Positions 37,606 to 43,936 of a stretch of DNA of 43,936 bases are shown piece by piece. A program made the translations under genes and the position numbers. Numbering within the stretch: the stretch's first letter is position 1; every line of letters starts with the position of its first letter. Source of the stretch: an uncultured Rubrobacteraceae bacterium (GTDB lineage Bacteria; Actinomycetota; Rubrobacteria; Rubrobacterales; Rubrobacteraceae); contig CADCVH010000030.1 in the NCBI GenBank assembly GCA_902806085.1, positions 1-43,936 on the forward strand, given 5' to 3'. The notes under the pieces are model-generated. The model searched no databases, was not told the origin of the DNA, and saw nothing but the letters and a program-made list of their open reading frames with translations.

Positions 37606-38661
37606 CTAGACTTTGTCCTCCGGCTGCGGGGCGCTCTCGCCGCTGGCGAAGCTGAAGTAGGCTTCGGGGTCGTCGGCGCTGATCCTGCCGGCCTTTATGA
37701 GCGAGAAGCGGAAGGCGAGCCCGCCGGCCAGCACGAGCAGCGAGGAGAGGATGCTCTTCCCGCGCGTCTCTTTGCCGGAGAAGAGCAGGGCGGCCGGGGC
37801 GGCGATGCCGGAGAGCAGGGCGCCCCCGACGAACAGCGGGGCCACCGACTTCGAGAAGAGGGGCTTGCCCCACCGGCTCATCCGGACCAGCGACGCGGCG
37901 ATAAGCCCGGCCTCGATGACGATCGTCGCCTTCTCCGCGCGGTGCAGGGCGCGCAGGGTCTTCGCCTCGCCGGAGTGGGTCAGGTGCAGCACGAGCGAGA
38001 GCCACGAGAGGGCCGTCGAGAGGCCCGAGGCGAGGAACGTCGGGGCCATCAGCGCCCAGTTGCGGGCCCAGATCGGGACGGAGGTGGCGCTTATGAGGTT
38101 GCCGGTGTTGAAGCCGACGAAGAGGCCGAAAGGCAGCGTAAGCACGGAGAGCAGGCGTTCGGGTATAAGCTTGAGAAGCAGCCGCGAGAGGACGTTGCGG
38201 CCGAGCAGGCCGTCGCTGGCGGCCTGACGCGCGGCGAGCAGCCCGCCGAGGTTGCCGAACATGAGCAGCGACCAACTCTGGGTGCTCATCGGGGAGCGCA
38301 GCTTGAGGATGCGCATCATGTTGTAGAAGCGCTCGGGTCGGCCGAGGTCCCAGATCAGGAAGATGGGGCTCAGGATCATGGTGACGAGCACGGTGTAGCG
38401 GCTGGCCCGCTTGAGGGCGGCGTCCTCGTGGCCGAGCAGTTGGGCCACCGTGGAGAACAGGTGCGTACCGGCGCCGATGCCCCCGATCCAGAAATAGACC
38501 GGGATCTGCCACGTCCAGTGCGCGTGCTTTATCGGCGGGATGCCGTAGTAGTGCTTGTCTTCCCTCTTCGCGTCGGTCTCTGGGTGGTGGGAGGTTTCGG
38601 GCCGCCCGTTACCCACGTGGCCGTTGCTCTGCGACAGGTCCTGCCTCGTGGCGTCAGACAT
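37606..38661 (-). CDS. nrfD: NrfD-type membrane subunit of formate dehydrogenase
   Basis: A 351-residue polytopic protein with about nine membrane helices after a soluble N terminus of about 50 residues. It matches the NrfD/PsrC family, which anchors molybdoenzymes and passes electrons to quinones: WTWQIPVYFWIGGIGAGTHL is the characteristic first helix with the conserved Gly-Gly-X-X-Ala/Gly run, and WDLGRPERFYNMMRI follows. It probably takes electrons from the ferredoxin subunit. The ATG start with AGGGGAAG upstream is preferred over a TTG five codons before. It overlaps the VOC gene stop by 8 bases. Confidence 0.88.
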   Translation of the reverse strand: MSDATRQDLSQSNGHVGNGRPETSHHPETDAKREDKHYYGIPPIKHAHWTWQIPVYFWIGGIGAGTHLFSTVAQLLGHEDAALKRASRYTVLVTMILSPIFLIWDLGRPERFYNMMRILKLRSPMSTQSWSLLMFGNLGGLLAARQAASDGLLGRNVLSRLLLKLIPERLLSVLTLPFGLFVGFNTGNLISATSVPIWARNWALMAPTFLASGLSTALSWLSLVLHLTHSGEAKTLRALHRAEKATIVIEAGLIAASLVRMSRWGKPLFSKSVAPLFVGGALLSGIAAPAALLFSGKETRGKSILSSLLVLAGGLAFRFSLIKAGRISADDPEAYFSFASGESAPQPEDKV

Positions 38662-39094
38662 CTCTTCCCCTCTCAAGGTCCGTCTCGTGGGTCGCTTTTT
38701 CGCGTTCGCCGAGGTGCTGCGAGAAGCGCAGCAGGTAGCCGTCGGGGTCCCGGACCAGGAACTCGCGCGAGCCGGTGACGGTACCGCCCGTGTCGCGCCA
38801 CACGTCCTGGACCCCGCGGTAGAGCGGGTACTCCGAGCAGACCAGGCCGTCCCTCAGCAGGCCCGCGTCGGAGCACTCTATCTGGAGGTTGATCCCCCTG
38901 CCGTAAGGCTTCTCGAGCCCGGCCGCGTTCCACGCGTCCTGGTGGAACTCCTCCAGCATCAACTGCGCGCCCTCGAAGTCCATGTAGGCGAAGGCGGCCT
39001 CATCGGAGCGGGAGAACACGACCTCGAAGCCGAGCTTCTCCGTGTAGAAGGCGAGGCTCTCGGTGAAGTCCGAGACCGTGAGCTCCGGAACCAT
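38654..39094 (-). CDS. VOC-family (glyoxalase/bleomycin resistance) protein
   Basis: A 146-residue vicinal-oxygen-chelate protein. It begins with the usual strand MVPELTVSDFTESLAFYTEKLGFEVVF and ends with GSREFLVRDPDGYLLRFSQ, the beta-alpha-beta-beta-beta pattern repeated twice. The conserved Glu in LMLEEFHQDAW and the Asp/Glu in the last repeat suggest a possible metal site. Members include glyoxalases and dioxygenases. It sits inside the formate dehydrogenase operon between the iron-sulfur and membrane subunits, an unusual place, and its role there is unknown. The ATG at 39094 is preceded by GGAG. Confidence 0.82.
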   Translation of the reverse strand: MVPELTVSDFTESLAFYTEKLGFEVVFSRSDEAAFAYMDFEGAQLMLEEFHQDAWNAAGLEKPYGRGINLQIECSDAGLLRDGLVCSEYPLYRGVQDVWRDTGGTVTGSREFLVRDPDGYLLRFSQHLGEREKATHETDLERGRDV

Positions 39095-39123: not shown

Positions 39124-39960
39124 CTAATCCCTGAACGCCAGCGCGACTACCGCCCCGAGGACGCCGGCCGCGACCGCGCCCGCGATCACGCCGCCCTTGA
39201 CCTTCTCCTGGGGCAGGTACGGGTGCTTGGGCAGGTTGTAGGTCTCCGGCTCGTCCATGAGGATGAACTTGGAGTGGTTGCCCTCGATGCCGCCGGTCCC
39301 GCCGACCTCGGGCGTTCCCCAGACGTACGCCTGGGTGTAGCCCTTGTCGTGGAGCTGCTGCACCCGCTCCTCGGCCAACTCCTTGAGGTCTTCGACGTCG
39401 CCGAACATGATGGAGTTCGTCGGGCAGGCCTTGGCGCACGCGGGCTCCAGGCCGTCTATCTGGCGATCGTAGCAGAGGGTGCACTTGAAGGCGCGGCCGT
39501 CGTTCGGGACCTGGGTAATGACGCCGTAGGGGCAGGCCGGGACGCAGTAGCCGCAGCCGTTGCAGATGTCCGGCTGGATGTAGACGTTGTCGAACTCGTT
39601 GCGGATGATCGAGCCGGTCGGGCACGCCTGCTGGCAGGGTGCGGCCACGCAATGCTTGCACACGTCGCTCATGAAAGCCCAGCGCCCCAACGCGTCGAGC
39701 TCCGCCCCGCCGGGGAGCGGCTCGGTCACGTCCTCGGCGAGGGCGACGAGGTCGACGTCGCCGGTGAGGCGCCTCTTCTTCGGGTTCTCTATAAAGGCTA
39801 CGTGGCGCCAGGTGGTGCCGGAGAGTTGCTTGGTGTTGTCGTAGGAGTCGCCGGTGAACTCGTAGCCGTCGGCGGGGAGCTGGTTCCACTGCTTGCAGGC
39901 CACCTCGCAGGCCTTGCAGCCGATGCAGACCGTGGTGTCGGTCAGGAATCCCGTTGCCAT
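39124..39960 (-). CDS. fdhB: Formate dehydrogenase iron-sulfur subunit
   Basis: A 278-residue electron-transfer subunit with four Cys clusters that would bind four [4Fe-4S] centres: VCIGCKACEVACKQ (from Cys12), CKHCVAAPCQQACP, CNGCGYCVPACPYG and the CTLCYDRQIDGLEPACAKAC group. The last 22 residues form one membrane helix (GGVIAGAVAAGVLGAVVALAF) that anchors it. It carries electrons from the catalytic subunit to the NrfD protein. It starts 3 bases after the 122-residue gene. Confidence 0.95.
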   Translation of the reverse strand: MATGFLTDTTVCIGCKACEVACKQWNQLPADGYEFTGDSYDNTKQLSGTTWRHVAFIENPKKRRLTGDVDLVALAEDVTEPLPGGAELDALGRWAFMSDVCKHCVAAPCQQACPTGSIIRNEFDNVYIQPDICNGCGYCVPACPYGVITQVPNDGRAFKCTLCYDRQIDGLEPACAKACPTNSIMFGDVEDLKELAEERVQQLHDKGYTQAYVWGTPEVGGTGGIEGNHSKFILMDEPETYNLPKHPYLPQEKVKGGVIAGAVAAGVLGAVVALAFRD

Positions 39961-39962
39961 CT

Positions 39963-40331
39963 CTACTTCCCTTCCAGGATTTTGCGCCGGACCTCCGCCA
40001 CGGGGGCCGCCGGATCGCTGCTGACACGGTACAACCTGTGCCCGAGGGCGACGCGCTGCTCCCGGTACACCCTGTCCACCATCCCCGTCCCCATGTTGTA
40101 GTAGACGCCCGGCTCGAGGACCTTCGCGCTTCTTACGGGCTTGAGACGCTTTTTGGCCATCGCGGGGTTGTTCGCGAGGTACTGGCCGAGTTCCATGAGG
40201 TCCTGGGTAATGGCCTCCCGCCTCGTGCCCTCGGCGAGCCAGGTCTCGCTCGCGGTGTCCCCCGGGGAGACGCGCGTGCCCCTGGGGGTCCGCACGCCTC
40301 CAGCCTCCCGGGAATCCCTGTAGTCGGTCAC
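39963..40331 (-). CDS. Uncharacterised protein of the formate dehydrogenase operon
   Basis: A 122-residue soluble protein that I do not recognise. Its N-terminal third is polar and probably disordered. The middle is helical (EGTRREAITQDLMELGQYLA) and the C-terminal half contains KKRLKPVRSAKVLEPGVYYNMG. It has no Cys, so it is not an iron-sulfur protein. The GTG start overlaps the catalytic-subunit stop by 4 bases (GTGA), and the ferredoxin gene follows 3 bases later. This tight coupling implies a role in assembling or holding the complex. Confidence 0.7.
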   Translation of the reverse strand: MTDYRDSREAGGVRTPRGTRVSPGDTASETWLAEGTRREAITQDLMELGQYLANNPAMAKKRLKPVRSAKVLEPGVYYNMGTGMVDRVYREQRVALGHRLYRVSSDPAAPVAEVRRKILEGK

Positions 40332-43300
40332 ACCCTGCCCGCTTCCAGGTTGGCGGTGAAGGCCTTGGCCTCGTGGATGGCGACGTTCGCCTCCAGGGCG
40401 ACCGGCATCAGGTTGTTCACCACGTCGCCCTTGACGATGCCGTTGGGGCCCCAGTGGTAGGGGAGGCCGATGGTGTGGATCTTGCGTCCGTCCATGTTGT
40501 AGACGGGTATGCGGTCAGTGACCAGTGCCCGGCAGTGGACCTTGCCGCGGCTCGTGGAGACGGTGACGAAGTCCGCGTTCTCGACGCCCACCTCGCCGGC
40601 CAGCGTCGGGCTGATCTCGCAGAACAGCTCCGGCTGGAGCTCCGAGAGCCACGGCAGCCAGCGGCTCATCGCCCCGCTCGTGTGGTGCTCGGTGAGCCTG
40701 TAGGTGGTCACCACGTGCGGGTAGCGGGGGTCCATCGGCTTGTTGTACGGGTTGTCCGGCCGGTCGAAGAGCCTGGCGGTCGGGGTGTACTGGACCTTGT
40801 CGTAGAGCAGGTTCGGTACCGGCGACTCGACGGGCTCGTAGTGGATGGGGAGCGGCCCGTCCTTGAGGCCGACGGGCGCGAAGAGCCAGCCCTTCCCGTC
40901 GCCCTGCATGATGAAGGGCCCGTCGCCCGGGATGGCGTCCACCCCTTTCGCGTCGTTCTCCGGTCGGTAGTCCGGCCGCTTGTCGGCCTGGAAGTCCGGG
41001 ATGTCGAGGCCGGTCCACTTTCCTTGCTCCTCGTCCCACCAGACGAACTTCTTCCTCTCGCTCCAGGGCTTGCCCTCAGGGTCGGCGGAGGCGCGGTTGT
41101 AGAGGACGCGGCGGTTGGCCGGCCACGCCCAGCCCCACTCGGTGGCGGCGTTGGGCTGCTCGGTCCAGGGCTTGCGGCGGCGGGCCTGGTTCACGCCGTC
41201 CTTGTAGACGCCGGAGTAGATCCAACCCCCACACGCCGTCGAACCGTCGTCCTTGAGCGCGGCGAAGCCGGCCACCGGAGAGCCGTCGGCGACGTTGTAG
41301 CCGTTGACCTCTTTGGTGATGCTCTCGATGTTGGGCTCGTCGTACTCGCCCTCGACGGGGTAGTCCCAGGTCATCGCCTGGATGAGGCCGTCCCGCTCGT
41401 CGGTCGAGTCCTTGTAGAGCTCCTTGATCCTGCGCCCCAGGTGGTAGACGAACCAGGCGTCGCTCCTCGCGTCGTCCGGCGGCTCGACGGCCTTGTCGTG
41501 CCACTGGAGCATGCGCTGGGTCTGGGTGAAGGAGCCGTCTTTCTCGGCGACGAGGGCCGCCGGGATAAAGAAGACCTCCGTTCCGCACTCCTCGGGCTTT
41601 ACGCCGTCCATCTTCCAGGCGGTGGCGGTCTCTATCTCGTAGGCGTCCACCACGACGAGCCAGTCGAGCGCCCGCAGGGCGTCGCGGGCGAGGTTGGCGT
41701 GCGGTCCCCCGACGGCGAAGTTCTGGCCGAAGTTGAAGGCGCCCTTCACCTCGCGGTCTTTCATCGCCATGATCGAGGGGTAGTAGGAGTGGTCCCCGTT
41801 TATGCGCGGGAAACGGTCGAAGAGCGCGCCGTCCTCCGCGTCGAAGGCCTCACCGTACCAGGCCTTCATCAGGCTCGTGGCGTACTTGGGAAAGTTGGCG
41901 AGCCAGCCGCTGCTGGCCGTCCCGTCCTCGATGTAGTCCCGCCAGGTGTCGTGGTCCTTGTTGGCGTCGGGCATGCCGAGGTAGCCGGGCAGGATGTTGT
42001 AGAGCGTCGCTATGTCCGTCGAGCCCTGGATGGTGGCGTGGCCGCGCAGGGCCATGATGCCGCCGCCGGGGCGGCCTATGTTGCCGAGCAGGAGCTGCAG
42101 GATGGCGGCCGTCCGGATGAGCTGGACGCCCTTTGAGTGCTGGGTCCAGCCGACGGAGTAGACGAGTGCTGTGGTCTTCTCGCGCCCGGAGTTCTCCGTG
42201 ATGAGCTCGGCGACCTTCTGGAAGGCCTCCCTCGGCGTGCCGCAGACCTTCTCGACCATCTCCGGGGTGTACTTGGCGAAGTGGCGCTTGAGGATCTGGA
42301 AGACGCAGCGCTCGTGCTGGAGCGTCATGTCCGTCGGGCGCGGCTGGTCGGGGGCCGTCTCGCTCTGCCCGCCGGCCTCGCCGACGATGCGCCCCTGGCT
42401 CCCGCCGACGGCGGCGTAGTCTATCGGCTGGCCCTCGTAACGCCACGTCGACGGGTCGTACTGGGTCTTCTCCTCGTCCCACCCGGAGAAGAGGCCCGTC
42501 GCCCCCGCGTCCTCGAACTCCTCGGTGACGATCGTCGCCGCGTTCGTGTAGGCCTTGACGTACTCCTCGAAATACTCCTCGTTCTGCAAGACGTAGTTGA
42601 TGAGGCCGCCGAGGAACGCTATGTCCGTGCCCGGGCGGATCGGGGCGTAGACGTCGCACAACGCGCTCGTGCGGGTGAAGCGGGGGTCGACGTGGATAAG
42701 CTTGGCCCCGTTCTTCTCCTTGGCGATCATGGGATGGCGGAACCCGACCGGGTGCGCCTCGGCCATGTTCGAGCCTTCTATAAGGATGCAGTCGGAGTTC
42801 TGGAGGTCCTGCAGGGAGGTGGTGGCGCCGCCCCTACCGTACGTGATGCCCAGACCGGGCACCGTGGAGGAGTGTCATATGCGCGCCTGGTTCGTTATTC
42901 GCGTAAAGCCCATCGAGTGGAAGAGCTTGGTTATGAGGTAGTTCTCCTCGTTGTCTATCGTGGCCCCGCCTATGGAGGAGACCGCTTGCGAGCGGCGGAG
43001 CTTCTTGCCCCCCTCGTCGTCCTCCTCCCAGTTCTCGTCGCGCGCCTCCTTCATGCGCGCGGCGATCATGTCGAGCGCCTCCTCGAGCGAGAGGTCCTCC
43101 CACTCGCCGGAGTACGGGCGCCTGTAGCGGACCTTCGTCCAGCGGTACGGCGAGTTGTGCAGGCCGAAGGTGGCCGAGCCCTTGGGGCAGAGGGTGCCCG
43201 CGTTTACCGGGCTATCCGGGTTGCCCTCGATGTCTATGATGCGGCCGTCGCGGTGGTAGACGAGGGTGGAGCAGCCGACCGCGCAGTACGGGCAGACGCT

Positions 43301-43441
43301 CACCGCCTTCTTCACGCCGTCGTCGGAGATGCGCGAGCGGATGTTGCGGGTCGCCGGGCTTACCGGGTGTTCGACCGTCGTTCCGACGTGGTTCCGGATC
43401 TTCTTCCAGAGCCCGTCCTTCTCCGTGAGCTTGAGAAACAT
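40328..43441 (-). CDS. fdhA: Selenocysteine formate dehydrogenase catalytic subunit
   Basis: A 1037-residue molybdenum or tungsten bis-pyranopterin enzyme that oxidises formate to CO2. One [4Fe-4S] cluster is bound by Cys50, 53, 57 and 85 (CPYCAVGC, LCPKG). At residue 189 the frame has TGA (plus 42875-42877) in NQARI-U-HSSTVPGLG, the position where the active-site Sec or Cys ligand stands in this family. Both flanking halves are in the same frame and fully match the family, and a bacterial SECIS hairpin follows. The C-terminal 130 residues are the pterin dinucleotide-binding domain. No twin-arginine signal is seen, so the enzyme probably stays in the cytoplasm. Start: ATG 43441 with AGAGGAG upstream; a GTG nine codons before is possible. 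Confidence 0.93.
42845..42877 (-). promoter_or_regulatory. Bacterial SECIS element and recoded TGA
   Basis: On the minus strand TGA (42877-42875) is followed after 11 bases by GGTGCCC-GGTCT-GGGCATC (plus 42863-42845). That is a 7-bp stem with one G-U pair and a GGTCT loop. E. coli fdhF has the same 11-base spacing and a GGUCU-containing loop in its SECIS. It would bind SelB carrying selenocysteyl-tRNA and recode the UGA. Confidence 0.88.
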
Positions 43442-43813: not shown

Positions 43814-43936
43814 ATGGCCGACAACAGGATAGTGGTCTACAAGGGTCCCGGCGAGGTGGCGGTGGAGAACGCCGAGTACCCGAAGCTCGAGGTGCCCCAA
43901 GAAGTGGCGAGCGCCATGGGGATGGGCCGGGCCGCC
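43814..43936 (+). CDS. Glutathione-independent formaldehyde dehydrogenase, partial
   Basis: The first 41 residues of a gene cut by the window end: MADNRIVVYKGPGEVAVENA, then YPKLEVPQEVASAMGMG. This matches the N terminus of the zinc-dependent, NAD-linked formaldehyde dehydrogenase of the Pseudomonas putida type, which oxidises formaldehyde to formate without glutathione. The zinc and NAD sites lie beyond the window. The ATG is preceded by AGGAG at ten bases. It diverges from the formate dehydrogenase operon, so its product would feed that enzyme. Confidence 0.8.
   Translation, partial: MADNRIVVYKGPGEVAVENAEYPKLEVPQEVASAMGMGRAA

Follow-up and report, generated by a model that had tools for sequence, protein, structure and literature searches.

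In the window, by which we mean the whole 43,936-nt stretch of DNA analysed here, the in-frame UGA of a formate dehydrogenase alpha gene (fdhA) is very probably read as selenocysteine (Sec), with a small RNA hairpin as the guide. The sequence itself, its conservation, covariation at the RNA level and complete decoding machinery in the genome make up the observations. Taken as a whole, our best explanation is that hairpin-guided decoding of UGA would yield a formate dehydrogenase with Sec at residue 189, which would oxidise formate and pass the electrons to quinone; we give it a probability of about 97%. An earlier, sequence-only reading had proposed a selenoprotein here, and the proposal is supported by a TGA column shared by 66 of 66 aligned TGA-bearing genes, by hairpin covariation and by the machinery of the host.

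A TGA at the metal-ligand site of fdhA

Two minus-strand ORFs, 43468-42875 (197 aa from the first start) and 42862-40328 (844 aa), share one frame and are parted by the TGA at 42877-42875 alone. Reading through from the ATG at 43441 gives a product of 1037 residues, in which the TGA is codon 189, equivalent to residue 198 of P0001, whose start lies 9 codons earlier. The sequence-only reading had described a single frame split solely by TGA in an NQARI context, followed by an 11-base gap, a 7-bp stem and a GGTCT loop; we confirmed each of these elements, and the interval 42845-42877 that it assigned to the TGA plus hairpin is correct. It had also predicted that automated calling would split the gene, which is what a mechanical ORF finder did. 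The full context is NQARI-TGA-HSSTVPGLGITYGRGG.

The fdhA product scores 1518 bits against NCBIfam NF041513 (formate_DH_Act, cut-off 1400) and 989 bits against TIGR01553 (formate dehydrogenase-N alpha, cut-off 814). It contains the Pfam domains Molybdop_Fe4S4, Molybdopterin and Molydop_binding (dinucleotide-binding), a full-length formate dehydrogenase alpha architecture that continues in frame across the TGA. Among solved structures its top relatives are formate dehydrogenase alpha chains named 'selenocysteine-containing'. The residue facing the TGA in 6sdr_A is a modified X (Sec), shown as C in other entries of that protein, and four homologues (L087, L103, L104 and L105) have Cys in this position. 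By these alignments the TGA is the metal-ligand Sec/Cys site, as had been proposed.

Conservation and covariation of the hairpin

The TGA column is identical in 66/66 aligned TGA-bearing genes from many genera, with flanks and frame intact. Relatives were also checked for a sense codon with decayed flanks, the pattern that the sequence-only reading had set against itself, and decay was seen in none of those aligned. TGA-bearing matches reach down to ~51% identity and include Rubrobacter marinus (L099), many Brevibacterium and members of Chloroflexota, Eremiobacterota and Occallatibacter; in an order-level search the TGA is present in every match that covers the site at full length. Extra stops in two genomes, a TAG in G024 and a second TGA in G037, fall 5' of the start codon, where they do no harm.

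The hairpin stem starts exactly 11 bases 3' of the TGA, after CACTCCTCCAC, and the loop 18 nt after the TGA. Its sequence is GGTGCCC-GGTCT-GGGCATC, with one G-U among the stem pairs. Measured against a bacterial SECIS model (PMC13188914), all four computable features agree: an apical loop of 5 nt with G as its first base (GGUCU), an upper stem of 7 bp (range 4-16 bp), a UGA-to-apical-loop distance of 18 nt (range 16-37 nt) and a minimum free energy of -12.3 kcal/mol for the 29-nt hairpin (threshold -7.5 kcal/mol or lower). For 45 nt the predicted energy is -14.7 kcal/mol. Such folding is ordinary for GC-rich DNA: the 50 nt from the TGA have a z-score of -0.98, with 33 of 200 shuffles equally good, and this score, not being significant, was dropped as evidence. 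An Rfam search of the window gave zero matches. What argues against chance is therefore the comparison with relatives.

The six core pairs were scored in 58 distinct sequences with the TGA and form in 58, 58, 57, 58, 58 and 58 of them; the seventh, at the base of the stem, forms in only 43. Two core pairs consist wholly of silent third-codon positions, and both covary. The wobble pair between Val codon +5 and Gly codon +9 occurs as G-C, C-G and T-A, and that between Pro or Ser codon +6 and Leu codon +8 as C-G, G-C, T-A and T-G. As a control that keeps relatedness we used 5452 other third-position pairs, 1-6 codons apart, from the same 66-gene codon alignment; a single pair reached 98% pairing or more with two Watson-Crick types, and no pair did so with three. 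All TGA-bearing relatives examined have GGUYU or AGUYU as the apical loop. The loop codon is GGT in 50/71 and AGT in 21/71, whereas elsewhere in these genes GGT makes up 12% of Gly codons and AGT 4% of Ser codons; in the window's own fdhA the shares are only 3% and 0%. Comparison with relatives is thus decisive in indicating a real hairpin, where folding energy could not be, and the hairpin is by these signs very probably a bacterial SECIS element, predicted to bind SelB.

The codon directly 5' of the Sec TGA (window 42878-42880) is ATA in 42/71 relatives, ATT in 23/71 and ATC in only 5/71. ATA accounts for 12% of Ile codons elsewhere in the relatives' genes and for 25% in the window's own fdhA. 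Its excess before the TGA may reflect a 5' context preference for Sec decoding. A second, shorter gene resembling formate dehydrogenase (~35% identical) is also found in several relatives; it too has an in-frame TGA and frequently lies near the first, for example G022:C12:2680-3774 (L110), G011:C4:2770296 and G016:C49:247160. A search of the window's genome did not reveal this shorter gene.

Decoding machinery, Cys homologues and rival explanations

The host had been expected to carry selA, selB, selC and selD, and all four were found in its genome (4.41 Mb in 133 contigs, 100% complete by tool estimate). The selA gene, within L014:6874-8688 (PF03841, 407 bits), overlaps selB at L014:8681-10537 (contig C130), which encodes GTPase and winged-helix domains. 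A 90-nt tRNA-Sec gene (selC) with anticodon UCA follows 0.6 kb beyond selB, at C130:11158-11247 (64 bits against an Rfam cut-off of 47). The selD gene is on contig C74 (TIGR00476, 354 bits against a cut-off of 125). With SelB, tRNA-Sec, SelA and SelD together in one genome, the Sec-decoding trait is present; FdhD, the formate dehydrogenase sulfurtransferase, is encoded as well. The selD gene (L111, G000:C74, 3934-5358, minus strand) has an in-frame TGA of its own, at the known Sec/Cys site in the motif KAG-U-GSK. Selenophosphate synthetase SelD is probably a selenoprotein too, bringing the host's likely selenoprotein genes to at least two. Directly after the tRNA-Sec gene lies a MoaC-like molybdenum cofactor gene, recognised by eye (L014 11438-11893); Sec and molybdenum cofactor genes therefore stand side by side on L014.

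Our sample of the phylum comprised 246 genomes, 74 with a TGA-bearing match over the site and 4 with a match lacking TGA; one of the latter, G197 (L108), gives no alignment at the residue, so three of four are readable. Cys-type homologues occur in Plantactinospora alkalitolerans (L087, TGC), G074 (L103, TGC), G066 (L104, TGT) and G257 (L105, TGC). Their loop codon is GGC or GGG, not GGT, in all four, and the loop is lost. Alignment of Cys-type homologues had been suggested by the sequence-only reading, and the readable ones proved to be without the loop, with SelB not detected in three of the four, namely the three that the comparison covered (G074, G066 and G257). SelB was found in 69/74 TGA genomes versus 0/4 non-TGA genomes (Fisher P = 9e-5, kinship ignored), and the five TGA genomes in which it was not detected are all fragmented drafts of 130-470 contigs. 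In the genus g47, TGA and SelB occur together in G107 and G127, and G074 has Cys with SelB not detected; by gene content this is a within-genus Sec-to-Cys switch accompanied by missing machinery. Overall, SelB was found in 151/246 sampled Actinomycetota genomes and in 20/22 Rubrobacteraceae of that sample. Judged by SelB, Sec decoding is common in the phylum and near-universal in the family, and the earlier remark that Sec use is patchy in Actinobacteria overstated its rarity.

These data bear on several other ways to explain the TGA. The two ORFs returned by the mechanical finder are what a pseudogene would also give, its TGA being a sequencing error or a recent nonsense mutation, but a TGA kept in 66 genes of many genera, between intact flanks and in an intact frame, effectively refutes such an origin; the hairpin's silent sites covary besides, and we consider the chance of it vanishingly small. 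Two separate genes were likewise rejected. It could be argued that the protein motif alone accounts for the conserved bases after the TGA and that the hairpin is no SECIS, given that UHSSTVPGLG is strongly conserved as a protein motif and that the folding energy is ordinary. Covariation of the paired silent positions, a rare codon (GGT or AGT) fixed at the loop, and GGC or GGG at that place in Cys homologues with similar protein sequence all speak against this, which makes it extremely unlikely.

Altered Sec decoding is known in some Actinobacteria, the Geodermatophilaceae having a tRNA-Sec with anticodon CUA (PMC5330540), and a selenium-free reading is accordingly conceivable here, in which a suppressor tRNA would insert Cys or some other amino acid at UGA. 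We regard this as very unlikely: the genome holds a tRNA-Sec with anticodon UCA above the Rfam cut-off alongside selA, selB and selD, and selD too bears TGA at its own Sec/Cys site. Selenocysteine decoding of the fdhA UGA is thus the reading we retain.

For this reading we infer the actual insertion of Sec, the metal involved, the flow of substrate and the route of the electrons as follows. The gene product would be the catalytic subunit of a formate dehydrogenase that depends on molybdenum or tungsten, with Sec189 as the residue that binds the metal. SelA would make Sec-tRNA(UCA) from Ser-tRNA with selenophosphate supplied by SelD, and SelB, bound both to Sec-tRNA and to the mRNA hairpin whose first base lies 11 nt beyond UGA, would bring about insertion of Sec where translation would otherwise terminate. 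The enzyme would oxidise formate, the source of which is probably the divergently encoded formaldehyde dehydrogenase, and electrons would run from alpha through the Fe-S beta subunit and the NrfD-like membrane subunit to the quinone pool. Gene content and protein families make likely this pathway, in which formaldehyde is converted by way of formate to CO2 and quinone receives the electrons.

Gene cluster and comparison with known systems

The cluster runs in the order alpha, 122-aa ORF, Fe-S beta, VOC/glyoxalase-like ORF and NrfD-like membrane subunit (Table 1). The 122-aa ORF is unmatched in Pfam and NCBIfam; counterparts with 43-90% identity occur at 32 Rubrobacteraceae loci and were not found in other relatives, and its product is possibly a new small formate dehydrogenase subunit or assembly factor. 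The fdhB product scores 167.7 bits against TIGR01582 (FDH-beta), under the cut-off of 334.7, and has by eye a single C-terminal hydrophobic segment; almost all relatives have the gene close to fdhA. In R. marinus beta is followed directly by the NrfD-like gene. The window's NrfD-like ORF is 62-64% identical to this R. marinus gene directly 3' of fdhB, which itself matches NrfD models weakly, below cut-off, and the protein is likely a quinone-reducing third subunit. A search with PF01292 for a cytochrome b gamma subunit gave one weak match on a different contig; it was set aside, the NrfD-like gene in the window being the likely third subunit. The 41 residues of the divergent gene are 71% identical to the start of an R. 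marinus gene that scores 704 bits against TIGR02819.

Table 1. Features of the fdhA region, in window coordinates.
Feature	Coordinates	Strand	Basis or detail
fdhA, predicted selenocysteine-containing formate dehydrogenase alpha (catalytic) subunit, 1037 residues	40328..43441	-	ATG 43441, stop TGA 40330-40328
Predicted Sec codon TGA, codon 189 of fdhA	42875..42877	-	Column identity in relatives, 6sdr_A alignment
Predicted bacterial SECIS hairpin	42845..42863	-	7-bp stem 42863-42857 with 42851-42845, loop GGUCU 42856-42852
122-aa ORF between alpha and beta genes	39963..40331	-	Overlaps alpha stop
fdhB, Fe-S (4Fe-4S) beta subunit	39124..39960	-	Fer4_11 above cut-off
VOC/glyoxalase-like ORF between beta and NrfD-like genes	38654-39094	-	
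NrfD/PsrC-like membrane subunit	37606..38661	-	R. marinus counterpart
Glutathione-independent formaldehyde dehydrogenase gene start, divergent	43814..43936	+	Cut by contig end

A family model for the protein already exists at NCBI (NF041513), and the gene is of a well-known kind in this bacterial family, so the finding is an ordinary one and none of our results overturns existing knowledge. It adds a well supported case of selenocysteine decoding in Rubrobacteraceae, in an enzyme that annotation treating TGA as stop would split. The relatives contribute unusually clear silent-site covariation, exposing an RNA element within a coding region, as well as the within-genus switch described above.

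Five selenoproteins were reported in 2006 for Rubrobacter xylanophilus, of the same family as the host and a different species, in a selenoproteome study that found FdhA in 67/75 Sec-using bacteria (PMC1794560). A Rubrobacter tRNA-Sec was reported in 2017 (PMC5330540). In Actinomycetospora chiangmaiensis, a related actinobacterium with Sec-formate dehydrogenases, removal of formate was reported in 2020 to depend on selenium (PMC7176365). Like A. chiangmaiensis FDH1 and other NF041513 FdhA proteins, the host alpha subunit has a length of ~1040-1090 residues and a predicted Sec at the metal site, and both systems have beta and a third subunit in the cluster and SelA, SelB and SelD in the genome (PMC7176365). 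Unlike FDH1, the host has the extra 122-aa ORF between alpha and beta, and its selA and selB are on another contig.

The best solved relatives of the host alpha subunit are the tungsten/selenocysteine FdhAB structures (PDB 6sdr, 8cm4 and others; ~725-732 bits). The host residue aligns with the modified Sec of FdhAB (6sdr), where the motif is QARI-U-HSPTVP; unlike FdhAB, a membrane subunit gene follows in the host cluster. By eye, no twin-arginine signal is apparent at the N terminus of the host alpha subunit.

The likeness to E. coli fdhF (FDH-H) drawn by the sequence-only reading held in part. GGUCUG stands at the identical distance of 18 nt from UGA, in the same UGA-CAC context, but the hairpins are not identical: in the predicted E. 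coli fold a U bulges from the stem and an A-U pair closes a GGUC loop, while the host stem is continuous. For E. coli SelB the bulged U is of importance. A joint reading, in which SelB recognises a SECIS lacking the bulged U, ATA is preferred before UGA, and a family-specific 122-aa protein, perhaps a small subunit or assembly factor, is translated between alpha and beta, is tentative and in our view rather doubtful. Unlike fdhF, the host protein belongs to the larger FdnG-like subfamily.
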